Source of the DNA: Acidisoma cellulosilyticum
Lineage (GTDB): Bacteria; Pseudomonadota; Alphaproteobacteria; Acetobacterales; Acetobacteraceae
DNA length: 64,000 nucleotides
Assembly: GCF_020621385.1 (NCBI RefSeq)
Contig: NZ_JAESVA010000016.1
Coordinates: forward strand, 1-64,000
Direction of reading: 5' to 3'
Part shown: in pieces, positions 5,171-60,897 of the stretch
Numbering within the stretch: position 1 is the first letter of the stretch
Layout of the letters: the number at the start of each line of letters is the position of its first letter
Position numbers and translations under genes: made by a program
The notes under the pieces: model-generated
The model's database searches: none
The model's input: only the letters and a program-made list of their open reading frames with translations
What the model was told of the DNA's origin: nothing

Positions 5171-6337
5171 ATGCGTGTTACTAATGTTCGTGCCTATCAT
5201 GTTCCCTCCGGAGGCGTTCGCCCAGTACTAGTTGAGGTTGAAACCGATGCCGGAATTACCGGATGGGGCGAAGCTGCTGTCGCTTACGGCATGGGAGCTC
5301 ACGCCGCCGTTGGCATGGTGTCGGACGTCGCATATCGTATCATCGGCGCAGACCCAAATTATCCACGGCACGTCTACCATACGCTTTATGATAATTCATT
5401 CTGGGCCAAGGGCGGCGGCGCCATAGTGTTTGCCGCTATCAGCGCCATCGACCAGGCACTGTGGGACATCAAGGGCAAGGCGGCCGGCGTTCCTGTCTAC
5501 CAATTCTTCGGAGGAAAATTTGCCGACCGCGCACAGGTTTACGCGAATGGCTGGAACTATCACTGCAATGATTCCGATGAATGGGCCAAAGCCGCCGAAC
5601 GCCCGATGCGCGATGGTTATAAAATCTTGAAATGCTACCCGCTAGCTACACAGCAGATGGGGCGGACGTTGGTGCACGCACAACGTAGGATGCAGACACA
5701 GGAAGACTTTCAGCGCACGCTAGATCGAATCCGCAAACTCAAGAATGTAGTCGGCAACCAAGCTGAAATTATGATCGACCTATCTGGAGGGCTGAACAAC
5801 GATCAGCTGCTTCGCGTGCTCAATTTATGCGAGGAAATTGATGTTCTCTGGGTTGAGGAGCCGTTCGACGCTTTTAACCTCACGGGCCTAAAAAATATCG
5901 CCGGGCGCTATAAGTTCCCCATAGCTGCAGGCGAACGTGTATATACCCGCAGCGGCTTTCGTAACATGCTCGATAGCGGCGGGGTCGACGTAGTGATGCC
6001 GGATGTTGGTAATTGCGGCGGTGTCTTCGAATTGGTGCAGATCGCCGCGATGGCAGAAGCTTACAACGCCCGAGTCTCGCCACACAACTGCGCGTCCTCA
6101 CTTTGCACGGCGGCCTCGCTCCAGGCCTGGGCTGCCTGCGCTAATGCCATGCAGCTGGAAATCTATCCCTATCTGCCAGAATCGGATGGATATGTGCAAG
6201 TTTTGGACGACGCGCCTGAAGAGCGGATCAAGGATGGCTGGCTCAGTGTTTCAGATGCACCCGGTCTTGGTGCGACAGTCAATGTGGATCGCCTTCGTCC
6301 GTATTGTCAGTTCGACTTTCGAAAGGCAAATGGTTGA
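5171..6337 (+). CDS. Mandelate racemase/muconate lactonizing family dehydratase
   Basis: 388 residues with the enolase-superfamily plan: N-terminal capping domain (1-125, including ITGWGEAAVAYG and ALWDIKGKAAGVPVYQFFGG) then a TIM barrel. Expected metal ligands are Asp203 (IMIDLSG), Glu229 (WVEEPFD) and Glu255 (AAGERVY); His305 (SPHNCAS) is the probable general base/acid. These enzymes abstract a proton alpha to a carboxylate, and most relatives of this shape dehydrate acid sugars such as galactonate or mannonate. The substrate cannot be read off. The gene is alone behind a sigma-54 promoter and ends at a bidirectional terminator shared with the convergent cupin gene. Start ATG 5171 follows TGGAG. 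Confidence 0.88.
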   Translation: MRVTNVRAYHVPSGGVRPVLVEVETDAGITGWGEAAVAYGMGAHAAVGMVSDVAYRIIGADPNYPRHVYHTLYDNSFWAKGGGAIVFAAISAIDQALWDIKGKAAGVPVYQFFGGKFADRAQVYANGWNYHCNDSDEWAKAAERPMRDGYKILKCYPLATQQMGRTLVHAQRRMQTQEDFQRTLDRIRKLKNVVGNQAEIMIDLSGGLNNDQLLRVLNLCEEIDVLWVEEPFDAFNLTGLKNIAGRYKFPIAAGERVYTRSGFRNMLDSGGVDVVMPDVGNCGGVFELVQIAAMAEAYNARVSPHNCASSLCTAASLQAWAACANAMQLEIYPYLPESDGYVQVLDDAPEERIKDGWLSVSDAPGLGATVNVDRLRPYCQFDFRKANG

Positions 6338-9445: not shown

Positions 9446-10363
9446 TTAATTTTCGGACAGTGCGACCTCACCAGTTGGATTTGCTTTGAGAGCGATGAAC
9501 TCGCGAGGGGATCGATAGCCGAGCGCGCGGTGCGGATGCAATGCGTTGTAATGTTCAAACCAGATGGGAAGCGATTGAATGACGGTGGCGGCGTCTGGCT
9601 TGGGATTGAACGCCACATAATCGCGTTTGAAGGTTCGCTCGAAGGCTTCGGCCATACCGTTGGATTGCGGGCTTTCAATTGGCGTGTGCAAAGAAAGGAG
9701 GCCGATCTCGCGCGCAAACCGGCGTGTGTCGGCCGCCGTGTAGCAGGAGCCGTTGTCCGTCAGCCATTCAATGGTTGTGGGCAATCGGTTGAGGCGGCTG
9801 AAGCGCTGATCGACAGCCGTGACCATCAAATCGCGGATATCGTCGCTCTTGATGCCCGCGGTTGTCGCAACATGGCTCATGGCCTCCCGGTCGCAGCAGT
9901 CGAGGGCAAAAGCGACACGAACGCGCTCCGCATTGTCACAAGCAAATTCAAATCCATCGGAGCACCAGCGAAGATTGGATTGCTCGACAGCAACGCGTCC
10001 ATCGTGCTGGCGTTCTGCGTGGCCACCAGCGTGTTTCTGCAGGAGAAGGCCATGCTTCTTCATGATCCGATAGACACGTTTGCGGTTTGCAGACGGCGCA
10101 CCCCGGGCTTCGGACCGGCGCCGCAACACGGCCCATACCCGCGGATAATCGTAGGACGGCATCTCGGCGATCACAGCCATGATCTCGCTCACCAACGGCT
10201 CTTCGGGCTGAGCTGGGCGTCCCTGGCGCTTGGAAGGGCCCTGTACGACGCGGCGTGCGACATTCGACCGTGCCACGCCGAGCGTCTCGCAGACCGCCGT
10301 CATGGGGAACTGTCTCGTGGCAGCGACAGCAGCCGCAACGGCCGTTTTTTTGAGTCCGTTGCA
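9446..10363 (-). CDS. IS3-family transposase OrfB
   Basis: The DDE integrase half of an IS3/IS2-type transposase. It has an HTH_21-like region (MKKHGLLLQKHAGG) and the rve catalytic core, with Asp in RWCSDGFEF, Asp in WLTDNGSCY and Glu in NGMAEAFERTFKRDY, then HRALGYRSPREFI. It has no good start of its own; expression is expected by -1 frameshifting from orfA at the A7 run (T7 on the plus strand at 10345-10351). The 5' boundary given is approximate, because the open frame extends to 10528. No disrupting mutation is visible. Confidence 0.85.
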   Translation of the reverse strand, partial: CNGLKKTAVAAAVAATRQFPMTAVCETLGVARSNVARRVVQGPSKRQGRPAQPEEPLVSEIMAVIAEMPSYDYPRVWAVLRRRSEARGAPSANRKRVYRIMKKHGLLLQKHAGGHAERQHDGRVAVEQSNLRWCSDGFEFACDNAERVRVAFALDCCDREAMSHVATTAGIKSDDIRDLMVTAVDQRFSRLNRLPTTIEWLTDNGSCYTAADTRRFAREIGLLSLHTPIESPQSNGMAEAFERTFKRDYVAFNPKPDAATVIQSLPIWFEHYNALHPHRALGYRSPREFIALKANPTGEVALSEN

Positions 10364-10692
10364 ACCTCCAGCGCTTCTTTCAGGATCTCGGTTTCCAGCG
10401 TCTTCTTGCCCATAAGACGCTGGAGTTCGCGGATCATATCCTGCTGAGCCCGGAAGGCCGATGCCGGGACAACCTCTTCCTCGGCTTGGGTTGCTGTCAA
10501 AGCGCCCTGTTCGGCCAGGCGTCTCCAAGTGAAGAGCTGGTTCGGTGACACACCGCGCCGGCGCGCGACAAGGCTCACCGTGGCGCCCGGTTCACGGGTC
10601 TCGTCGACCATCGCCAGCTTTTCCGCCACAGACCAACGCCGTCGGCGTTCCGGTCCAGGCAAAACCTCGGTCCGAGGATAAGAACCAGTCAT
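10300..10692 (-). CDS. IS3-family transposase OrfA
   Basis: 130 residues with the IS3 OrfA plan: an N-terminal HTH (RRRWSVAEKLAMVDET, then SLVARRRGVSPNQLFTWRRL) and a leucine-zipper-like segment (IRELQRLMGKKTLETEILKEAL). It binds the IS ends and forms the fusion transposase with OrfB by frameshift at the A7 run. Confidence 0.85.
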   Translation of the reverse strand: MTGSYPRTEVLPGPERRRRWSVAEKLAMVDETREPGATVSLVARRRGVSPNQLFTWRRLAEQGALTATQAEEEVVPASAFRAQQDMIRELQRLMGKKTLETEILKEALEVATDSKKRPLRLLSLPRDSSP

Positions 10693-16196: not shown

Positions 16197-17717
16197 TTAT
16201 GAGTCACCGATCACTGTGTTCTCTATCGAGAGATCGTGGCGGCGAACCGCTAGAAGTTGTGGTGTAAGCGGAGGGCCAGGGAACCGGCGGCGCTCTATCG
16301 CGAACCAGCCGATAGCCAGGAGAAGCAGGATTCCGATAAAGTAATTCAAGAGAACCTGCGTCGGTGGTTGCAGTCCTACCCAGATGACGTAGACGCCGCC
16401 GACGATACCAATGATCCTAAACAACTTTGACCAGCCGCCAAGCCGAAACGGTCCGTAAATGTGATGCTTCGAAAAGAGTGCCGCACAAATCGCCATTCCA
16501 TAACTGAGCTGATAGAAAAGTGCTGTGCCAGCGATGAGCGCAGAAAAAGCGGAGGAATAGAGGGTCGTGCATACCGCAAGGATGGCACCGCACCAGATCG
16601 CGACAGCGGGTGTGCGATATTTATGGGAGACAAGACGCAAAGCAGAAGGCAGACCTCGGTCGCGGGCAAAGGCAAAAATGGCACGCGAGAATCCGGTGAG
16701 GCAGCACGTGCCACAAACGTAAGATGCCACGACGAGTGCGACCGCGATAAAGTCCTTGACGATGGTGGGCGCCTGGGTCTGACCGAACATGACAGAGAAC
16801 GCATTGGCGCCTTGTTTGGCAATCTGGTCCTGATCAGCCATAGCGAGACCGAGCGCTGTGAAAATGACGATACCCAGCAGCGCTGAGAATGAAGCGGACT
16901 GTACCATCGCACGCGGAACGGCTCGCGCTGCGTCAATGGTTTCTTCCGAGGTGTGCGCTGACGCGTCATAGGATGTGATGATCCACATCGGTAGAAGGAT
17001 TGCATAACCCAAAACAAGCGCAATATTGCCGGTATGGGGAACAACGTCTCCGCCAAGCGTGCCTGTGTTATTTGTAAAAGTGAAGATGTGTTCGAGGTTC
17101 TGCGGGTGGATATTGTAAAGCAGGATGGACAGCAATGCGACCGCGCCGATAAACGTCATATAAGCACCAAATTCTCCAAATCGAGCAAGCGTTCGCACCC
17201 CGACATGGTTGAGAATAGCTTGGGATGTCACGATGACAACGACTCCCACAACCTGATGCCAGTATCCCCAGCTTGACGTGTCTATATGCAGAACCCATCC
17301 GAGGATCATCTGAGTGAAGAGCAGGTAGATGGCGACGGCGGTCCCCGCGACCGAGAATGTGTACGCGAGGAGGTTTAACCAAGCGGTCGCCCAACCCCAA
17401 CCGCGCCCGCCAAATACGGATGACCAGTGGTAAAGGCCGCCGGCCGTCGGGATGGCAGATGCGATTTCGGCCAGAGACAAAGCTGTCGATACGGCGATGG
17501 CACTGCCGATGAGCCAGCCGACACTAACTCCGAACATGCCGGCACTGCCAATGCCCTGCTGCATGTTGATACAGGCACACCAGAAGACTCCGATCACCAT
17601 GAAAGACATGGCGAAATTACCGAAGCTCGACATCAGCCGGCGCAATTCCTGCGTATAGCCAAACTTTTGCAATATTTCCGTGTCGTTATCGACGACTTGG
17701 TCATCGAACTTATCCAT
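16197..17717 (-). CDS. Amino acid permease (APC superfamily)
   Basis: 506 residues from ATG 17717 (MDKFDDQVVDNDTEILQKFG); the frame is open to 18044, but that part overlaps the glycine riboswitch on the other strand and is not coding. About 12 membrane helices; helix 1 includes SFGNFAMSFMVIGVFW and SAIPTAGGLYHWSSVFGG matches the conserved substrate-site region of the APC amino acid/GABA/choline-type permeases. It imports an amino acid or amine by proton symport. It is divergent from the glycine-riboswitch-controlled oxidase and has its own sigma-54 promoter (17771-17786). A role in importing the oxidase substrate is inferred. Confidence 0.88.
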   Translation of the reverse strand: MDKFDDQVVDNDTEILQKFGYTQELRRLMSSFGNFAMSFMVIGVFWCACINMQQGIGSAGMFGVSVGWLIGSAIAVSTALSLAEIASAIPTAGGLYHWSSVFGGRGWGWATAWLNLLAYTFSVAGTAVAIYLLFTQMILGWVLHIDTSSWGYWHQVVGVVVIVTSQAILNHVGVRTLARFGEFGAYMTFIGAVALLSILLYNIHPQNLEHIFTFTNNTGTLGGDVVPHTGNIALVLGYAILLPMWIITSYDASAHTSEETIDAARAVPRAMVQSASFSALLGIVIFTALGLAMADQDQIAKQGANAFSVMFGQTQAPTIVKDFIAVALVVASYVCGTCCLTGFSRAIFAFARDRGLPSALRLVSHKYRTPAVAIWCGAILAVCTTLYSSAFSALIAGTALFYQLSYGMAICAALFSKHHIYGPFRLGGWSKLFRIIGIVGGVYVIWVGLQPPTQVLLNYFIGILLLLAIGWFAIERRRFPGPPLTPQLLAVRRHDLSIENTVIGDS

Positions 17718-17770
17718 GAGCCATCGTCCCTTAAAAAATTCAAGCACGCCAGAAGCAGTTATTCGACGAT

Positions 17771-17786: not shown

Positions 17787-17957
17787 AAGTTTGCGGCGGC
17801 GTTGATGTCGGCTGTCTGCCTTTGAAGAAGAGTTGAAATCGTCCTTCCGAAGCGTCCTGTGCGGACAGGTTGGGACCCTATAAACAGAGTATGATCCCCG
17901 TAGAGGCGGCGGCGGGAATTTCGGCATGAGACTTGCTGGACCAACGATTGTCGAAAC

Positions 17958-18138
17958 AGCCTCTCGGGAGAGACCGGGATTAATCGGCGCCGAAGGAGCA
18001 ACCCCCCGGAAACTCTCAGGCAAAAGGACTGAGAGGCTGGACAATCTGGAGAGAGATGGCGCAGATCAGTCGTGTCATCCACCGAAGGGGAAATCTGGCA
18101 CCGCCGGACAAACTCTCAGGTACAAGGGACAGATGGGG
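17958..18138 (+). promoter_or_regulatory. Tandem glycine riboswitch
   Basis: Two consecutive gcvT-type aptamers. Aptamer 1 (about 17958-18038) has the P1 arms AGCCTCTC/GAGAGGCT, GGAGAGACCGG, the GCCGAAGGAGCAA segment and AACTCTCAGGCAAAAGGACTG. Aptamer 2 (about 18042-18138) repeats GGAGAGA, CCACCGAAGGGG and AAACTCTCAGGTACAAGGGACAG. A short linker joins them, as in cooperative glycine sensors. A 6-bp hairpin (CCGCGG/CCGTGG, about 18147-18166) followed by ATTTTAC may be the expression platform, ahead of the AAGAGG ribosome site of the oxidase. Confidence 0.93.
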
Positions 18139-18190
18139 ACAGTCGCCGCGGTCTTACAGCCGTGGATTTTACAGCCAAGAGGTTTGCTCT

Positions 18191-19432
18191 GTGCCCCATA
18201 TAGCCGTCATTGGTGCCGGTATCACCGGTATGACAACTGCATACGCTCTGTTGAACCGTGGACACAAAGTTACGGTGATCGAGCGCCATCCCTATCCAGC
18301 GATGGAGACTTCCTTCGCCAACGGTGGACAGCTTTCGGTTAGCAATGCCGAAGTTTGGAACCACGCATCAACCGTTATCAAAGGGCTAAAGTGGATGACG
18401 CGAAAAGACGCGCCACTTTTGGTTCATCCTGCCCCAACATGGCATAAAGCATCATGGATGGCGGAGTTCGTCGGCCAAATCCCCCGGTACCATGTCAACA
18501 CCGTCGAGACTGTCCGCCTTGCTTTGACCGCTCGCAAATATATGCTCGAGATCGCCGAAAAAGAGCATATTGACTTCAATCTTGAACGGCGTGGCATTCT
18601 GCATTTCTATTACAACAAGGCCAGTTTCGAGCATGCGGGGGTTGTTAGTCAGATGCTCAAGGAAGGCGGATTGGACCGTCATCCTGTCACTCAGGCTGAA
18701 ATCAAAGACATTGAGCCGGCTCTGAATGGACAGTTTTATGGGGGCTATTTCACTCCTTCGGATTCGACCGGAGATATCCACAAATTTACCCGTGGTCTTG
18801 CCGACGTGTGCGCGAGGCTGGGGATGAACTTTGTCGGGAACGCCGAGGTGGTGAGGATCACCCACCTCGGCGGACAGGGTATCGAGATCGCCTGGCAGAA
18901 GAAGGGGCCAGGCGAAAGCACGGCGCAAAGTCTTGGGCGATTTGACTCCGTCGTTATGTGCGCGGGTGTCGGGACGCGACGACTGGCGGCAATGCTCGGC
19001 GATCGGGTGAATATTTATCCTGTGAAAGGCTATTCCATCACCGTGCATCTTGACAGCGAGACGAGCCGCAAAGCCGTACCTTGGGTGAGTCTGCTTGACG
19101 ACAAGGCGAAGATTGTGACTAGCCGGCTTGGAGAGGACCGATTTAGGGTAGCGGGCACTGCTGAGTTTCGCGGTGAAAATCGGGACATACGGGCCGACCG
19201 TATCCAACCTCTAGTGGCATGGTGCCGCAAGCTTTTCCCGCGAATGGATACTGACCGTGTGATCCCCTGGGCGGGGCTGCGGCCAATGATGCCTAATATG
19301 CTTCCGCGCGTGGCCAAGGGACGCCAGGAGCGCGTGTTCTACAATAGCGGCCATGGCCACTTGGGCTGGACTTTGTCGGCTGCGACCGCAGAAATTATCG
19401 CACAACAAATAACCTCGGAAACGCCGGCCTAG
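18191..19432 (+). CDS. DadA-type FAD-dependent D-amino acid/glycine oxidoreductase
   Basis: 413 residues from GTG 18191 (MPHIAVIGAGITGMTTAYAL), with AAGAGG about ten bases upstream; the longer frame from 18056 lies inside the riboswitch. It has an N-terminal dinucleotide-binding GAGITG fold with an ERHPYPAMETSFANGG block typical of DadA, and a C-terminal FAD-contact region (PWAGLRPMMPNMLP, YNSGHGHLGWTLSAATAEIIA). It oxidatively deaminates D-amino acids or glycine to 2-oxo acids. The tandem glycine riboswitch directly upstream argues that glycine, or a precursor of it, is the physiological substrate, giving glyoxylate. Malate synthase G at 30556 could use that glyoxylate. Confidence 0.9.
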   Translation: MPHIAVIGAGITGMTTAYALLNRGHKVTVIERHPYPAMETSFANGGQLSVSNAEVWNHASTVIKGLKWMTRKDAPLLVHPAPTWHKASWMAEFVGQIPRYHVNTVETVRLALTARKYMLEIAEKEHIDFNLERRGILHFYYNKASFEHAGVVSQMLKEGGLDRHPVTQAEIKDIEPALNGQFYGGYFTPSDSTGDIHKFTRGLADVCARLGMNFVGNAEVVRITHLGGQGIEIAWQKKGPGESTAQSLGRFDSVVMCAGVGTRRLAAMLGDRVNIYPVKGYSITVHLDSETSRKAVPWVSLLDDKAKIVTSRLGEDRFRVAGTAEFRGENRDIRADRIQPLVAWCRKLFPRMDTDRVIPWAGLRPMMPNMLPRVAKGRQERVFYNSGHGHLGWTLSAATAEIIAQQITSETPA

Positions 19433-20463
19433 CCGGTCGCTGGTCTAACTTGCCGCTGCTCCATCCGCATGGCCATTGGCTCATGGCGCGGCGCAGCGGC
19501 ACAACAATCCTCCAGGGAAATCACGATTCTAAGTTCCGTCAGGATGCGAATAGATACCAGGGACATCTCATCACAGTGATTTGCGAGCACTTGTCGCAGT
19601 CCGATAGACATACCGCTCACACGAGATCTGCGGCGCCGGCCGCTCCCCGCCAAGCATGAGTCTCCACCGCCTCCGGAACGTTTCGGCTCATACACGCGTA
19701 GCTTGAAAAACTTTTAACGTTCGGACGCAATGAGGGAAGTCCAGCAAGCGCAACGTTTGTAGCTAGTACGACGTTTGTAGCTTTGAGATCACCCGAAGGC
19801 GTTTGGCGAAGAAAACCCACTTCCACTTCCGTAGCTCGCTGCACAAGAGTATCCTCAAAGACGGTGCAGCCACGCCGAAGAATTTCGGAACGAAGATGAT
19901 ACGCCAAACATCCCTGACGCACCGTCGCGCCCTCGGAATACAATAAGCCACCACGGAAAATCGGAGACCATAGATGCTGTCTCATCTCATCTTGGGATAC
20001 TGGTGAGACACTTGAGGCTAATCCCAGTGCTCTAGCGACCTCCGATGCTCCTGAAATTATGGTGTCTTGTCCTTTGCTCATGGAAATCAGCAGATTGCCG
20101 CCTTCACTCTACTGACAATCCCAACCGCTGGCCGTACAAAAATTGCGAACCAGATCCTGCGAGCGGTCTCCCAGACGCGCAGCATATAACGCGTCTGAAT
20201 CACCGAGCTGATGGGAGAGAAGCTCCAGGCTAGACCTGTAGCCATCAACCTTACCAACATTACACGAGCTGGCGCCGTATCCGTAGCAATAAGCATCTAA
20301 TATCGCGATACGCAAAGTAGGACGTCGGTCCAGCAAAGCGATTGCAGTCCACATGCTGGCAAAGCCACCACCAACGATGGCGACGTCTACACGCAAGCTC
20401 CCCGTCAATGGCGGTCGGGGAGGTGTGCAGGCTTGAACGTATTAGACGTCCAGCAACCACCAT
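19433..20463 (-). pseudogene. Decayed DAO-type FAD oxidoreductase
   Basis: This matches the intact gene at 34556-35995 in pieces: DVAIVGGGFASMWTAIALLDR (from about 20385) to CTASGWDC, then SQDEMRQHLWSPIFRGGLLYSEGA to HAWRGAAGAADL, then the extreme C-terminal GMSIGLR near 19600. It has a frameshift before the FAD motif, a stop near 20109, a missing stretch of about 30 codons and a deletion of roughly 150 codons between AAGAADL and GMSIGLR. It cannot make a working enzyme. The paralogue shows what it was; no sigma-54 promoter remains upstream. Confidence 0.8.
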
Positions 20464-26806: not shown

Positions 26807-28732
26807 TCAGTTAGTTGGGGACATTTGGATCCGCCGCGTTCCACGCGGCCGGATGCCAAATTCTTTTAGCCGGCGATAAAAGGTCGCTCGGCTCATCTGT
26901 AAAGCTTTCGCTGTTTCGGCAGCGTCGTCGTTGTGATCGCGCAGCGCAGCCATCAACATCGCGCGTTCATCGCCGCGTTGTGGGCTGGGAGGCAGGCTAA
27001 TTGCGGCCGGCGGCGCAATCGCTGTGGACGTAACGCCGGCATTGATCTCGATATCAAAAAACAAATGATCCTCCTGGATCATCCCGTCGTCGGCGACGCA
27101 AGCGGCGCGTTGTAGTACGTTGCGCAGTTCACGGAGGTTTCCTGGCCACTCATACGATTGGAGCAACGCCATGGCCGCTGATGACACAGACATCCCAGCA
27201 CCGGCCGGATAATCGGCAAGAATCTTAGCAACGACTTCTGGAAAATCGGTGCGCTCACGCAGTGTAGGCAGGTTCACAACAACGCCCGCGAGACGATAAT
27301 AAAGATCGGCGCGGAATCGTCCTTCTCTCGCCGCCTGAGCCACCGAGACATTGGTTGCGGCAATCACCCGTACATCAACGCGGCGAACTGCACCCCCACC
27401 AATCGGCGTGACCTCTGCGTTTTCTAGAAACCGCAGCAGCCTAGTCTGCAAGGCTACGGGCATGTCGCCGATCTCATCAAGAAAGAGAGTGCCACCCTCT
27501 GCTTGCATGATGCGACCAGTCTGTCCCTCCTTCCGGGCACCGGTGAAAGCCCCGGAGCTATATCCGAAGAGCTCACTGTCGATGAGGGTTTCAGGCATTG
27601 CAGCACAGTTTAAGGCCACAAAAGGCTTGTGTGACCGAGGTCCATCCGCGTGGATGGCACGCGCCAACACGTCCTTACCTGTGCCTGTCTCTCCAAGGAG
27701 CAGCACAGGCAGAGTACTACCGCGCACACGTTGCAGTAAGCCCGCATTTCGTATCATTTTCGGATCACTGCCTACCGTCTCAAGGAGGCTGCGGCTTCCG
27801 GTTACAGGGGCTCGTGCAACATGGTCAGGCCTACCGCTGCTAAGAGGGGAGCGGATGGGGAAATGGATTTTGCTCGGAATCCGCACCCCGTCGATTTTAT
27901 GCACCAACGCAACAGACTTTGACGATCCAGGAGTGAAAAAGGAGTTATCTCGGTCAAAATAATTCCACAGCGATTTGCCGTCGATGCCATATCCGGTTGC
28001 TCTGAGGAAATTCATCGCGTGCCTGTCGGCAGCGATAAGAGAACCCTCTTCACGTGCGGCAACCAGCGCCATCTGACCGGGGCTCACGCGCATTTCCACC
28101 AAACAATGGTCTCGGTGATAGTGGCGGAATAACCGCCTCTCAACCTTTTCAGCCATTTTTATCAGGATGTTATAGGCCATTTGGTGCAATTCTCGCGACA
28201 CCGATTCCGAACTGGTCGTGATATTGAGCACGCCCAGTATATCACCTGAACTGGCAAAAACGGGCGCTGCAGCGCAGCAATTGTCGGTATAACGGCTGAG
28301 AAAATGATCCGATTTATAGAGAGAAACTGGCCGTGCTTCCCAGAGCGAGGTGCCGACGCCGTTGGTTCCTTCCGTTTCTTCAGTCCAAAGAGAACCAGGA
28401 CACTCCAAGCTCGGCACCCCTCCGGCGCCGCTAGCTGGGAGGTTCAATATTGTGACACCAGCCTTGGTGCAGAATGAGACCTCGTAGCCGGAAGGATTTA
28501 TTAATGCAGATAGCTCGAACAGACCAAGCTCAATGATATCCCGATAGGGCTCCAAGGGCTCTGCTTGCCGGCGCCACTCTGTGCGCATGAGTGTATGGGG
28601 ACGCCGCCGCTGAATGGGGTCGAGCTTGTGCACTTCGATACAACGACGCCATGATACATCGACCCAGTTGTCCGCGTCCCGAGCGGTCAGCGATGACAGT
28701 ATATGCGCTCGATGTGCGTTCGCGTCGATCAT
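26807..28732 (-). CDS. Sigma-54-dependent activator, AcoR-like (GAF-AAA+-Fis)
   Basis: 641 residues from ATG 28732 (MIDANAHRAHI), with GGAG nine bases upstream; ATG 28762 is an alternative. The N-terminal 300 residues are an AcoR-type sensor with a GAF-like core (SYTDNCCAAAPVFASSGDILGVLNI region). The central AAA+ domain has Walker A GETGTGKD (about 345), the sigma-54-contacting GAFTGA loop (about 392, SSGAFTGARKEG) and Walker B TLFLDEIGDM. A Fis HTH ends it (NDDAAETAKALQMSRATFYRRL). It activates RpoN promoters when a small ligand binds; acetoin is the ligand for true AcoR, unknown here. It lies centrally among eleven such promoters and is divergent from the monooxygenase. Confidence 0.92.
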   Translation of the reverse strand: MIDANAHRAHILSSLTARDADNWVDVSWRRCIEVHKLDPIQRRRPHTLMRTEWRRQAEPLEPYRDIIELGLFELSALINPSGYEVSFCTKAGVTILNLPASGAGGVPSLECPGSLWTEETEGTNGVGTSLWEARPVSLYKSDHFLSRYTDNCCAAAPVFASSGDILGVLNITTSSESVSRELHQMAYNILIKMAEKVERRLFRHYHRDHCLVEMRVSPGQMALVAAREEGSLIAADRHAMNFLRATGYGIDGKSLWNYFDRDNSFFTPGSSKSVALVHKIDGVRIPSKIHFPIRSPLSSGRPDHVARAPVTGSRSLLETVGSDPKMIRNAGLLQRVRGSTLPVLLLGETGTGKDVLARAIHADGPRSHKPFVALNCAAMPETLIDSELFGYSSGAFTGARKEGQTGRIMQAEGGTLFLDEIGDMPVALQTRLLRFLENAEVTPIGGGAVRRVDVRVIAATNVSVAQAAREGRFRADLYYRLAGVVVNLPTLRERTDFPEVVAKILADYPAGAGMSVSSAAMALLQSYEWPGNLRELRNVLQRAACVADDGMIQEDHLFFDIEINAGVTSTAIAPPAAISLPPSPQRGDERAMLMAALRDHNDDAAETAKALQMSRATFYRRLKEFGIRPRGTRRIQMSPTN

Positions 28733-28887
28733 AGCCCCACTCCATCTTGCCTCCACAGGCAAAGGCCAACTCTGAAAGCGTTTTAGTAGGCAAATTTATA
28801 TAAAGCATGCTCAGCCGCAAGGCAAAAAAAATTTCCGCAAGCTTAGCTGCCTAAACCATGTGCGTAGACGCCTGTCTAAGCAATTTT

Positions 28888-30318: not shown

Positions 30319-30555
30319 AGGGACACGAAGTAGATGATTAAATAAGATCCACAAAGAATTTGGATTAGTCGGCACTATAAGCCAATCAGCGGCCTTGCTC
30401 GGTCATGGTTGGATGGTAAAAAGATCAAATGGCGACCTAAGGTGAGGACGCAGAACGGCCGCGCCACATGGCAGCAAATGAGAGCGTCTTCGCATAGGCG
30501 ACCTGCGTCTCAAGTGAAGTCGGACGAATATCGCGGCAACCTAGAGAGAAATCGA

Positions 30556-32709
30556 GTGACGGATAAAACAATAGCCACCGGAAACCTTGAAGTTGCTAGC
30601 GTTCTTCGGGACTTCGTGGTGAACGAGGCGTTAGTCGGGACTGGACTAGACGCTGACGTTTTTTGGAGAAATTTCGAAACTTTGCTAACAGAGTTTTCTC
30701 CTCGTAACGAAGCTCTTCTGAAGCTGCGGAACACATTTCAAGCAGAAATTGATGCATGGCATGTTGAGCACCGAGGCGGCCCGCATGATGCGGCCGCTTA
30801 CAAAGTTTTTCTTTCGGAAATCGGCTACCTCGTTCCTCAGCCGACCGATCTTCTCATCGAGACAGCGGGCGTTGATGACGAAATTGCGCTGATTTCTGGA
30901 CCACAGCTGGTTGTTCCAGTCACAAACGCTCGCTACGCGCTGAACGCGGCCAATGCCCGTTGGGGTAGCTTGTACGACGCTCTCTACGGAACCGATGCAA
31001 TCGACGAATTGGACGGCGCTGGACGAATGGCAAACTTTAATCCGGTCCGTGCCGCCAAAGTGGTGGCCTACGCGAAAGCATTCCTAGATCGGACCTTCCC
31101 GCTTTCCGAAGGGAGCTACGCGGAAGTTACGGGGTTTTCTGTAGAGAACGGTCAGCTGCAAATACACCAACAGGTCAGAAAAACCGCCCTGCGATCGCCA
31201 GATCAATTTGTGGGATTCAAGGGCGCGGATGCTATCCTGCTGAACAACAACAAATTGCACGTGGAGATAGCGATTGACCGAAGCCACAATATTGGCGCGC
31301 ACGATCTTGCCGGAATTTCCGACATTTTTCTAGAGTCGGCAGTTTCTACGATCATCGATTGCGAGGATAGTGTCTCGGCCGTCGATGCTTCAGATAAGGT
31401 CCTTGTTTACCGCAACTGGCTCGGTCTGATGAAAGGCACTCTCACCGCTTCAGTGGAGAAAAATGGCCAGGTTCAGACGCGGACTTTGAATGAAGACCGA
31501 ATTTATACCGCGCCTGATGGTACGAAATTGGTACTTCCAGGACGTTCTCTGATGCTTGTTCGCAATGTTGGTCATCATATGATGACAGACGCTGTGTTGC
31601 TGGGTGGCAGCGAGGTTCCTGAAACCATCTTGGACGCCGTAATTACTACGTTAATCGCAATGCAGGATCTTCGTCAGCCAGGAAAATTCAGAAACTCTCG
31701 TGCGGGTTCGATTTATATTGTAAAACCCAAGATGCATGGGCCTGAAGAGGTGAGCTTTGCCAATGAGATCTTCGGGGCGGTGGAGCAATTGCTTGATCTA
31801 CCCCGGTTTACGGTCAAAATCGGCATAATGGATGAGGAACGCCGCACCAGCGCTAACCTCAAAGCCTGTATATCACGTGCTCGACATCGCCTGGTTTTCA
31901 TCAACACAGGGTTCCTTGATCGAACCGGTGATGAGATTCATACCTCGATGCAAGCGGGGCCATTCATCCGTAAAGCCGGACTAAAGACTACACCGTGGAT
32001 ACTTGCCTATGAAGATCGCAATGTGGATATCGGCCTTGCCTGCGGCCTAAAGGGCAAAGCCCAGATAGGGAAGGGGATGTGGGCGGCGCCCGACCAAATG
32101 GCTGCAATGTTGCAGCAAAAGATTGCCCATCCGCGGGCAGGTGCAAGTACCGCTTGGGTGCCGTCCCCCACAGCCGCAACGTTACACGCACTGCACTACC
32201 ATGAGATTGACGTCGCCAGCAGCCAGAGCACGATTAGTAATCGCAGCTCAGCGTCTCTCGATGATCTTTTGTCTATCCCGCTGGCGGACGAGGTAAATTA
32301 TTCGTCCGAGGAGATCCAACAGGAGCTCGACAATAACATACAAAGTATTCTTGGCTACGTCGTGCGATGGATTGATCAGGGAATTGGCTGTTCCAAAGTC
32401 CTCGACATACATAATGTCGGTCTCATGGAAGATCGGGCGACTCTCCGGATCTCGTCTCAGCACATAGCAAATTGGCTCCATCATGGGATCGTCAATGAAG
32501 CTCAGGTAATGCGCACGCTGAAGCACATGGCGTTGGTAGTCGATCAGCAGAATCGGAGTGATTCCAACTATAGCTGCCTTGCTCCGAATTACGATGGGGC
32601 CGCTTTTCGAGCTGCTCGTGAACTTATTTTTAGTGGGGTAAGCCAACCGAATGGCTATACCGAGCTTGTCCTCACCCGGTTCCGAAAAGAGGCAAAGAAC
32701 GCTCTCTGA
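30556..32709 (+). CDS. glcB: Malate synthase G
   Basis: 717 residues from GTG 30556 ([20 protein letters not shown]), chosen because it gives the family's usual length (about 720); the frame is open to 30409. Family landmarks are the [24 protein letters not shown] segment, [45 protein letters not shown] and the [17 protein letters not shown] region. It condenses glyoxylate with acetyl-CoA to malate in the cytosol. Placed in a catabolic cluster with a glycine-responsive oxidase, it probably assimilates glyoxylate made there. No convincing sigma-54 promoter is seen before it; it may have its own sigma-70-type promoter. Confidence 0.95.
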
Positions 32710-34555: not shown

Positions 34556-35995
34556 ATGCTAAATCTGCTGATGCCGCCAAGCAGCTACCGAGAAGAGGAC
34601 CGTTCCTGGTGGCTAAACGACGTGCGATCGCTGCAAGGCGCCTTAAGGAATCACGCGCGCCTAACCGGCACGCAGACGGCGGATGTAGCTATCATTGGCG
34701 GCGGGTTTACCGGCATGTGGAGCGCGCTGGCGCTTTTGGACCGCCACCCCAAGTTACGTATCACTGTTTTGGATGCTTTTCGCTGTGGCGAAGGCGCGAG
34801 TTCCCGCAACGGGGGGAAGGCTCATGGCTATTGGTCGAGCCTCGGCCGGCTGAGCCAACAGCTCGGCGCATCCGCAGCCCTTGCCACGGCCAGGCTCGGC
34901 GACAAGGCGCAAGACCAGCTACGCAGCTTCTGCACCAGCAGCGGGCGCGATTGTTGGTGGCAGGAAAGCGGCAATCTGGCGATCTCGACGGCCGCGTCGC
35001 AGGATTATAAAATCGCCGAAGCCGTGGCCGTTGCCGCGCGCATGGGCGTGGCGGATAGTGTTGTAGCGCTGTCGCAAGACGAAATGGTGCAGCATATCAA
35101 GGCGCCACTATTTCGTGGTGGACTGCTCTATCGCGAGGGGGCAACCGTCCACCCGGCCCGTGTCGCCCACTATCTGCGCGCCGAAATCCAAGCGCGCGGT
35201 TGCGCGATCTATGAGGATACGCAGATAGCCGCGATTACTCCAACTGAAAACGGTGCCGTGCTGCACAGCGCAAACGGCCAACTAACGGCAGGCAAGGTGA
35301 TACTAACGACGAACTTCGCTCTCTCCAGCCTGGCACATCTGCGGCCGCATCTCACTAATTTTTCAAGCTATGCCACGATGAGCCGCCCCGCCCCGGAAGC
35401 GCTGCGTGGTCATGGCTGGCTGGGCAGCGTCGGCGCGGCCGACCTGCGGATGTTCCTGCATTATTTCCGCAAGGCCGGAGACCGCGTTCTTATGGGTGCG
35501 GGCTCCGGTCCCATCGGCTTCGGTCAGGCATTGCAAGCTGAGCGCCTGCGGCAGGACAAGCCATCCCTGCGTCGCCCCGCCAATGCGCTTCAGCGCCTCC
35601 TACCCGGGTTTTCTACCCAGGATATCGAGCGCAGCTGGGGTTGGCCTATCGACGTCACCGCCGACAGGCTGCCTTACGCAGCACGTCTCAAAGGGCAAAA
35701 TATCTTTTATGGCGGCGGGTTCTCAGGCCATGGCGTCAACCCAACCCTGATTATTGGCCAATGCTTGGCGTCTCTGGTGACGGGCCAAGACGACGAATGG
35801 ACGAGATCACCGTTCTGCCAGCGCAAAATGCCGAGTTTGCCGCCGGAACCCCTGCGGTTTATCGGCGGCTCCGCCGTACGCTGGGGTATCATGAGCTGCG
35901 AGAATGACGAAGAAGATGGGCATTCACCCAATATGGCTGCCCGGTTCTGTGCAGCTTTGCCACGTCTGACCGGCATGTCTATTGGGTTACGCTAG
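34556..35995 (+). CDS. DAO-family FAD-dependent oxidoreductase (PuuB/OrdL-like)
   Basis: 479 residues. After an N-terminal SYREEDRSWWLNDVR lead (typical of gamma-glutamylputrescine/amine oxidases of the OrdL type) comes the FAD fold DVAIIGGGFTGMWSALALLDR, then FRCGEGASSRNGGKAHG. The catalytic half includes LFRGGLLYREGATVHPARVAHYL and the C-terminal FAD contact FYGGGFSGHGVNPTLIIGQ. It should oxidise a C-N bond of an amine or amino acid. The last about 60 residues are not family-typical, but their final GMSIGLR is also preserved in the decayed paralogue at 19.4-20.5 kb, so they are probably native. Confidence 0.88.
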   Translation: MLNLLMPPSSYREEDRSWWLNDVRSLQGALRNHARLTGTQTADVAIIGGGFTGMWSALALLDRHPKLRITVLDAFRCGEGASSRNGGKAHGYWSSLGRLSQQLGASAALATARLGDKAQDQLRSFCTSSGRDCWWQESGNLAISTAASQDYKIAEAVAVAARMGVADSVVALSQDEMVQHIKAPLFRGGLLYREGATVHPARVAHYLRAEIQARGCAIYEDTQIAAITPTENGAVLHSANGQLTAGKVILTTNFALSSLAHLRPHLTNFSSYATMSRPAPEALRGHGWLGSVGAADLRMFLHYFRKAGDRVLMGAGSGPIGFGQALQAERLRQDKPSLRRPANALQRLLPGFSTQDIERSWGWPIDVTADRLPYAARLKGQNIFYGGGFSGHGVNPTLIIGQCLASLVTGQDDEWTRSPFCQRKMPSLPPEPLRFIGGSAVRWGIMSCENDEEDGHSPNMAARFCAALPRLTGMSIGLR

Positions 35996-58671: not shown

Positions 58672-60897
58672 TCAGGCAGCCGACAGCCGTGCCTGAGCCG
58701 GCCGCACCTCAGCCGGCCGCACCTCTGCCAGCATGGAGGCCGCGAGCGCCGCGCGAGCAAGCTCGACCTCCATGCCGGTGACCCGCAGAGGGGCATAGGA
58801 CAGGCCATCCGTCAGCAGAGCGATATCCCGCGCTTCGGAACCCCAGGCCGGATGCAGTTCGGTGACGGAATGGCCATAGGCGAAGGACGTCCGATCACCG
58901 GTATCGAGATAGCTTTCGCAAGCCAGCCCTTCCGCGAGCAGCACGTCATGAGCGTCCAGCTCGACATGGAAATAAGTGACGCTGTCGGCCGTTGTTTGCG
59001 CTATGGTTTTGCCGTTGATGAGGTGCTTCACCGGGATCAGCACGTCTTCGGTATAGAGCGCGTGATCGGGCGATAAAAAGAGATCGCGCGTCGGAACGCC
59101 GAGGCCGAAAGCGCCGGCTTGGACGCGTACAGGATAGACGGCGGCGGGGCGTCCGTGATGCGCGCAATCGACGTTGCGAGAGCCGAGCCATTTGACCGGC
59201 CTGAGCACGCCGGAGACGGTGACGATGAGATCGCCGATGGCCAGATCCTCGACAGCGATATCGCCCCTGGCCGTGCGGATGCCGGTGCCGGACGCGAAAC
59301 AGGCGGGCGCGGTGAGATTGACCACATGCTGCGTCAGCGACTTGAGCGAACCGATGACATTGCCCGTTGAAGGGTCCAGTAGCTCGACGGTGAAGACTTC
59401 ATCGCGCGGTGCGGCGGCATCGGCCGAGAGCTCGATGGAAAAAGCTTCATCCGCACTGGTGGCGTTGGAACTGAAGGTGAGGGTGCCGGAAGTCGGGCCC
59501 GTGAAGTCTTTGAGCAGCGGGCCATCGGCGCCGGTGAGAATTTTCCATTCGACCGTGCCTGTCTTCGGGCTGGCACCGCTCAACGACTGCGCGTCATAGG
59601 TGAAGGTAGTGGGCTTCGACCCGGAGATATTCACGGTCGAGGCTTGGCCGGACAGGTCCGTATTGAGGTCGAAAATACGGCCGTTGATGGTGAGCTTGCC
59701 GCTTTCGGTTCCGCCGTCGTTCAGAATATCCTTGGTGGCGGTGCCGGCGGCGCCTGTCACGCCGGTATGGCCTTCATTGCCGGCACTACCGGCGAGGCCG
59801 TTGCTGCCGAAGGGATCTCCGGATCCGCCGGTCCCGCCTGCGCCACCCGTTCCGGGGTCGGCCCCAAGACCGCCTTTGCCGCCCGAACCGGCCGTCGCGC
59901 TGTCATTCGCCAATACAGCGGCGCCCACGACCGTGACCTTGCCGGTATTGAGGATGCCGCCGACGGCCGATCCTCCGGCACCGCCGTCGCCGCCATTGCC
60001 GCCCGATCCGCCATTGCCACCGTCGCCACCGTTGCCGCCGGCACTGGGGTTTACCGGTGGCTGCTTCGGCGCACCGATGCCGATACTGAAGCCGCCGCCG
60101 CCACCGGCACCTCCCGCGGCACCGGCACCGCCCTTACCCCCGGCCCCGCCGGCCCCACCGGTGGCCTTGCCGGTGACGATGCTGTCCTCGAGCGTCAGAT
60201 CGCCAGTGTTGATGATGCCCCCGACCGCTTCCGCGCCGTCGGTGCCGCTGCTGCCGGATCCGCCATCCCCGCCCGTGCCCCCGTTGGCGCCATTGCCGCC
60301 GTTCACAAATCCGCTCGGTGAGGCAAAACCGGTACCACCCGTGCCGCCGGCGCCGCCCTGGCCGCCAACAGCGCCCCCAGCACCGCCTGCACCCTTGCCG
60401 CCGCTGGCCGTGCCGGTGACCGTGGAGTTGATCAGGGTCAGCTTGCCATCGTTCTCAATGGCTGGCGTGCCGGCGAGCGCGGCAGCGCCATTGGCTGCAG
60501 TCGCATCACCACCGGGATCGCCGTCACCCCCCTTTGTACCCGGCTGCCCCGTTTGTGTGCCGGGTAACCCATCGGTTCCCACGCTGCCCTTGACCCCGGC
60601 CTGGGCATTCGCGGTCGCCGCCAGACCGGCGCTGGTGCTGACGACCCGCATATCGTTCATCGTCACGTTGCCGGTCAACTGGACGATGACTTCCCCATTG
60701 ATGGTGACGCTTGCGTTATTATGAGCGTGGTCGCCGTCGATGGTGACGGCCTGGTCGATCACCAGCGGCGAGGTCAGAGAGATGCTGGTGACGCCCGATG
60801 CAAAAGCAATCGTGTCGCCGGGGGCCGCTGCGGCGAGCGCGGCACGAAGCGAGCCTGTGCCACTGTCACCCGAGTTTGTGACGGTAATGACGCTCAT
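58672..60897 (-). CDS. Large Gly-rich repeat protein with Hint domain
   Basis: 741 residues. Residues 1-90 look like an N-terminal beta-helix start ([21 protein letters not shown], a CSLREA-like opening). Residues 100-420 are a low-complexity Gly-rich region built from GGxGG and GxGGxGG units, broken by non-repeat islands ([33 protein letters not shown]). A beta-rich linker follows, then from about Cys532 a Hint (Hedgehog/intein) domain ([41 protein letters not shown]). The C-terminus repeats [12 protein letters not shown]. No signal peptide is visible. Such proteins are exported and may be autoprocessed; role unknown, possibly adhesion. Confidence 0.82.

Follow-up and report, generated by a model that had tools for sequence, protein, structure and literature searches.

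A tandem glycine riboswitch upstream of a flavoenzyme gene

The window (the whole 64-kb stretch of DNA that was analysed) contains two adjoining glycine riboswitch aptamers with a short linker and a leader-linker complement, all far beyond chance, and, 48 nt beyond the end of the second aptamer, the start of a gene encoding an FAD-dependent oxidoreductase (Table 1). When Rfam model RF00504 was run over the whole window, aptamer 1 was recovered with an E-value of 1.7e-13, whereas aptamer 2 was missing from the cmscan output because of its 6-nt overlap with aptamer 1. Both aptamers exceed the gathering threshold of 32 bits (73.6 and 59.6 bits). The original prediction had placed a tandem glycine riboswitch before a DadA-type FAD enzyme instead of gcvT, and this is borne out by the two RF00504 matches and by the assignment of the gene to PF01266 and NF009074; of the interval that it gave, 17958-19432, the end is correct and the start falls 3 nt into aptamer 1. 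The riboswitch itself is typical of its class, and an RF00504 search of the window's own genome found only this tandem one.

Table 1. Features of the riboswitch-oxidase transcript, in window coordinates
Feature	Position	Strand	Evidence and remarks
Leader arm AUUGUC of predicted leader-linker (kink-turn) helix	17947..17952	+	Pairs with 18040-18045
Glycine riboswitch aptamer 1	17955..18041	+	RF00504, 73.6 bits
Glycine riboswitch aptamer 2	18036..18142	+	RF00504, 59.6 bits; 57.4 bits when scanned alone
3' strand of aptamer-2 P1 with tail (AUGGGGACAG)	18133..18142	+	Predicted unliganded pairing with start-codon region 18189-18199; MFE and centroid fold
Small hairpin CCGCGG-loop-CCGUGG between aptamer 2 and gene	18146..18165	+	MFE fold
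Shine-Dalgarno-like AAGAGG	18177..18182	+	8 nt upstream of GTG start; sequence
PRK12409-type FAD oxidoreductase; proposed glycine dehydrogenase/oxidase	18191 (GTG)..19432	+	PF01266, NF009074

The complement between leader and linker (GATTGTC/GACAATC) is 7 bp long, a length equalled in none of 200 shuffles. Pairing at this position recurs with altered letters in homologous leaders (GTTC/GAAC, GTCC/GGAC), and complements of at least 5 bp are present in 20 of 75 homologues, with a mean of 3.97 against 3.25 in shuffled sequences. Retention of the complement with changed letters in part of the homologues supports a functional tandem architecture.

No intrinsic terminator was called in the leader by the terminator scan, even at the small hairpin that is followed by AUUUU, and the promoter scan was likewise empty. 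In the predicted unliganded structure, by both MFE and centroid, the region of the GTG start pairs with the 3' strand of aptamer-2 P1, so that the start is buried; this suggests that the leader controls translation of the oxidase gene, the usual mode in Pseudomonadota (PMC12452182, a 2025 survey of contiguous riboswitches). Forcing aptamer-2 P1 to form costs 3 kcal/mol in fold prediction and still does not free the start codon, and pairing between the P1 3' strand and the start region is not enriched across homologues (shuffle test of 77 leaders; median z -0.36; p<0.05 in 4). In Bacillus subtilis, the tandem glycine riboswitch turns expression on (PMC5666159), and the rationale for such ON control of glycine-degradation genes has been described (PMC6944388); by analogy with these systems, the window riboswitch would be expected to act as an ON switch.

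The oxidase matches the DAO domain (PF01266, 240 bits) and belongs to the NCBIfam family NF009074/PRK12409, named 'D-amino acid dehydrogenase' (696 bits, cut-off 494). It falls short of the cut-offs for canonical DadA (PRK00711; 317 of 383 bits) and for the glycine oxidase ThiO (TIGR02352; 132.7 of 250.8 bits). Its predicted structure (pLDDT 87.9) has glycine oxidases as the closest solved folds (Z 34-37), and glycine oxidases are also its best solved-structure matches by sequence. The fold search does not single out a substrate, as enzymes of proline and sarcosine lie within about 1-2 Z units of glycine oxidase; the fold of iminodiacetate oxidase is also close. ThiO of Bacillus and Geobacillus is the best solved match in both sequence and fold, with the arginine of the AGLRP motif aligned, although its identity to the window oxidase is about 20%. 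ThiO serves thiamin synthesis and, in Bacillota, is controlled by a TPP riboswitch (PMC12452182).

Beyond the oxidase gene, on the opposite strand, is a 154-aa open reading frame (19617-20081) that resembles a fragment of another FAD oxidoreductase and may be a decayed gene; it has no Pfam match at 1e-10.

Conservation of the riboswitch-oxidase pair

The 80 closest homologues of the oxidase in the GTDB genome collection (60-67% identity, with near-duplicates from Ancylobacter and Paraburkholderia included) were scanned at their loci by means of a covariance model derived from aptamers of the window and its relatives. A riboswitch lies directly upstream on the same strand in 76 of them, with aptamer matches that typically end 140-240 nt before the gene start. 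The sample spans Alpha-, Beta- and Gammaproteobacteria, and the riboswitch-bearing families range from Xanthobacteraceae and Rhizobiaceae to Burkholderiaceae, Comamonadaceae and Granulosicoccaceae. Thus, the arrangement, which had been presented as exceptional, is common across proteobacteria. The tandem form is also widespread: a fuzzy pattern describing aptamer 2 matches every one of the 77 leaders, that of the window included, and when 14 whole genomes were searched with RF00504, most yielded both aptamers above the cut-off. The largest number was seen in Microvirga sp. VF16 (G069, the genome of homologue L057), with ten glycine aptamers that constitute five tandem pairs. Among the four exceptions, L082, L092 and L106 have no riboswitch and L083 retains a remnant of aptamer 2; the decayed leader of the latter, from a Granulosicoccus MAG (approximately 5700-6001), has kept the 3' part of aptamer 2 and lost aptamer 1.

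Among the 60 genomes nearest to that of the window, the riboswitch is present at 8 of 11 homologues with at least 60% identity and at none of the 14 with 39% identity or less, the canonical DadA of the window's own genome among them. In a tree of 66 proteins, a fully supported branch sets the former group apart, and the riboswitch label changes 6 times on this tree, compared with a mean of 12.8 when labels are shuffled. This distribution is most simply read as an old association in the clade, with several later losses; one apparent loss takes in a paralogue in the window's own genome (C1:344535, 63% identical, without a riboswitch) together with its relatives in two congeners. Glycine control is therefore not essential to the oxidase family. 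Six alignment columns separate the riboswitch clade from the distant homologues, and at H390 the motif GHGHLGW is invariant in the clade, versus GHGTLGW in 12 of the 14 distant homologues.

The description of the window oxidase as 'DadA-type' must accordingly be qualified: glycine is a very poor substrate for the canonical DadA of E. coli (KM above 500 mM; PMC9436414), whereas the riboswitch marks a different clade. Canonical DadA (PRK00711, including the E. coli enzyme) shares the fold and about 35% identity with the window oxidase but differs in its GHGTLGW motif and in the lack of a riboswitch at the distant homologues in relatives.

No conserved gene neighbourhood offers a clue to the substrate: leaving the gene itself aside, the cluster with the most members is a shadow ORF on the strand opposite to it, and every other neighbour cluster occurs in 9 or fewer of the 80 loci. 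With no gene broadly conserved beside it, the oxidase gene has the riboswitch as its only constant partner. In the window, an APC-family amino acid permease (16197-17718, reverse strand) is transcribed divergently from the riboswitch and oxidase and might import the substrate of the latter; homologous loci have no broadly conserved neighbour.

Glycine cleavage in the window genome and its relatives

The window's genome was searched for the glycine cleavage system. GcvP was not found above the cut-off (24.5 versus 26 bits, a partial match only), and GcvH was not found. Matches to GCV_T occur only in reading frames 840 and 1062 aa long, sizes that would fit fusion proteins resembling dimethylglycine dehydrogenase, and in one frame of 312 aa. 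With an assembly of 59 contigs that is 98.5% complete, it is unlikely that all parts of the cleavage system were lost to gaps. Four congeners were searched as well: G001 and G003 gave no GcvP match above the cut-off and G004 has only a similar partial match (26.5 bits), while G002 has a full GcvP and carries riboswitches both near GcvP and before its homologue of the window oxidase. In most other relatives, a glycine riboswitch precedes gcvT.

Proposed function and alternatives

The reading preferred here, at a probability of roughly two in three, is that the riboswitch responds to glycine by switching on a dedicated glycine dehydrogenase or oxidase that yields glyoxylate. The tandem leader would sense an excess of glycine, the binding of which would raise expression of the single-gene transcript, most likely at the level of translation. 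The PRK12409-clade flavoenzyme would then deaminate glycine oxidatively to iminoacetate/glyoxylate and ammonia, with electrons passing to FAD and from there probably to the quinone pool, and would thereby offer a route of glycine removal in an organism where no cleavage system was found. The oxidation of glycine had been part of the original prediction, and it is the most economical reading of the conservation at 76 of 80 homologues, the apparent absence of the cleavage system and the precedent of DadA6 in Cupriavidus necator. This paralogue of DadA has been termed a glycine oxidase, and its gene was removed because it drained glycine (PMC11879842; PMC12421819, citing Claassens 2020). Because of this precedent and the matches to solved glycine oxidases, glycine is a likely physiological substrate of the window oxidase despite the high KM of E. 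coli DadA. DadA6 resembles the window oxidase in being described as a glycine-removing DadA-type flavoenzyme and may belong to the same clade; the passages on dadA6 in PMC11879842 and PMC12421819 mention no riboswitch. A homologue of the window oxidase from Cupriavidus (L052) does carry the riboswitch. The published dadA6 primer has one exact match in 60 Cupriavidus genomes, at a locus without a dadA homologue.

Alternatively, the enzyme might oxidise D-amino acids such as D-alanine and D-serine, with glycine acting only as a signal: an excess would disturb D-alanine and peptidoglycan metabolism, and the dehydrogenase would be induced in response. The name of the NCBIfam family agrees with this alternative, as does the toxicity of glycine via peptidoglycan cited in PMC6944388. 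It is nonetheless considered unlikely, given that the genome has a separate canonical DadA (L115; PRK00711, 638 bits) without a riboswitch, that the clade has replaced GHGT with GHGH, and that the 80 homologues have no broadly conserved neighbour and hence no conserved racemase operon.

It is improbable that the enzyme acts instead on a derivative or source of glycine (sarcosine, iminodiacetate or another N-substituted glycine), an activity to which the near-tie with sarcosine oxidase in the fold search and the proximity of iminodiacetate oxidase would lend themselves. Glycine would then be the product, and the riboswitch an OFF switch or a feed-forward sensor; such product repression would depart from the ON logic established for genes of degradation, the best sequence matches of solved structure are glycine oxidases, and C. 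necator DadA6 is described as one.

A malate synthase G is indeed encoded in the same region (30409-32709), as originally noted, and a malate synthase gene, glcB, is preceded by a glycine riboswitch in Candidatus Pelagibacter (SAR11; PMC2211319), but a regulated glycine-to-malate branch with the window's enzyme as dedicated partner is very doubtful and was not upheld, since this gene lies 11 kb away without a riboswitch, the genome has a second malate synthase, and no gene is broadly conserved beside the homologues of the oxidase. Malate synthase G may use the glyoxylate, as may other enzymes. The same proposal had contrasted regulation by RNA with regulation by sigma-54; nothing was found to connect either malate synthase G or the sigma-54 regulator at 26807-28762 with the oxidase gene.

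The proposed glycine-activated oxidase can be compared with two known systems. With the B. subtilis type of riboswitch before gcvT operons it shares the aptamer class, the tandem form, the leader-linker helix and a target that would remove glycine, and it differs in that the target is a single flavoenzyme gene and in that no intrinsic terminator was found in the leader. With SAR11 it shares a glyoxylate-related gene under a glycine riboswitch in an alphaproteobacterium; in SAR11, however, the riboswitch is on the malate synthase, whereas in the window it is on the oxidase and the malate synthase has none.

A riboswitch is strong evidence for the purpose of the gene downstream, and the occurrence of the riboswitch-oxidase pair in many proteobacteria indicates that this family probably disposes of excess glycine. 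Its near-constant presence before the clade also suggests that many proteins called D-amino acid dehydrogenase degrade glycine, with a bearing on glycine toxicity and nitrogen release, and on the unwanted drain of glycine in engineering of the reductive glycine pathway. A broader proposal, for which the odds appear about even, is that the PRK12409 clade is a dedicated, riboswitch-controlled proteobacterial glycine:acceptor oxidoreductase, an alternative to the cleavage system and the main remaining glycine degrader in some species including this one, and that a large family is misannotated. The glycine regulon would gain a recurrent class of target beside the cleavage system and transporters.

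The pairing of the riboswitch with PRK12409 is at the least under-reported in the literature. The main text of the 2025 survey gives gcv genes for the glycine riboswitches of Pseudomonadota, and dadA/COG0665 is absent as a target from the main texts of PMC2211319, PMC3766115, PMC6944388 and PMC12452182, the supplementary regulon tables (RegPrecise) being a place where dadA may be listed. Among the papers listed by an open-literature search for a glycine riboswitch linked to dadA or D-amino acids, none was relevant.

Several other features of the window were noted. Two overlapping transposase-like ORFs in an IS3-like arrangement (9446-10692, reverse strand) suggest mobile-element activity near the island. 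A second DAO-family oxidoreductase is encoded at 34556-35995 on the forward strand; its nearest model is the aminophosphonate oxidoreductase TIGR03329, at 256 of 633 bits and thus far under the cut-off. The reverse strand encodes, at 58672-60897, a protein of 741 aa that carries a Hint_2 domain at its C-terminus.
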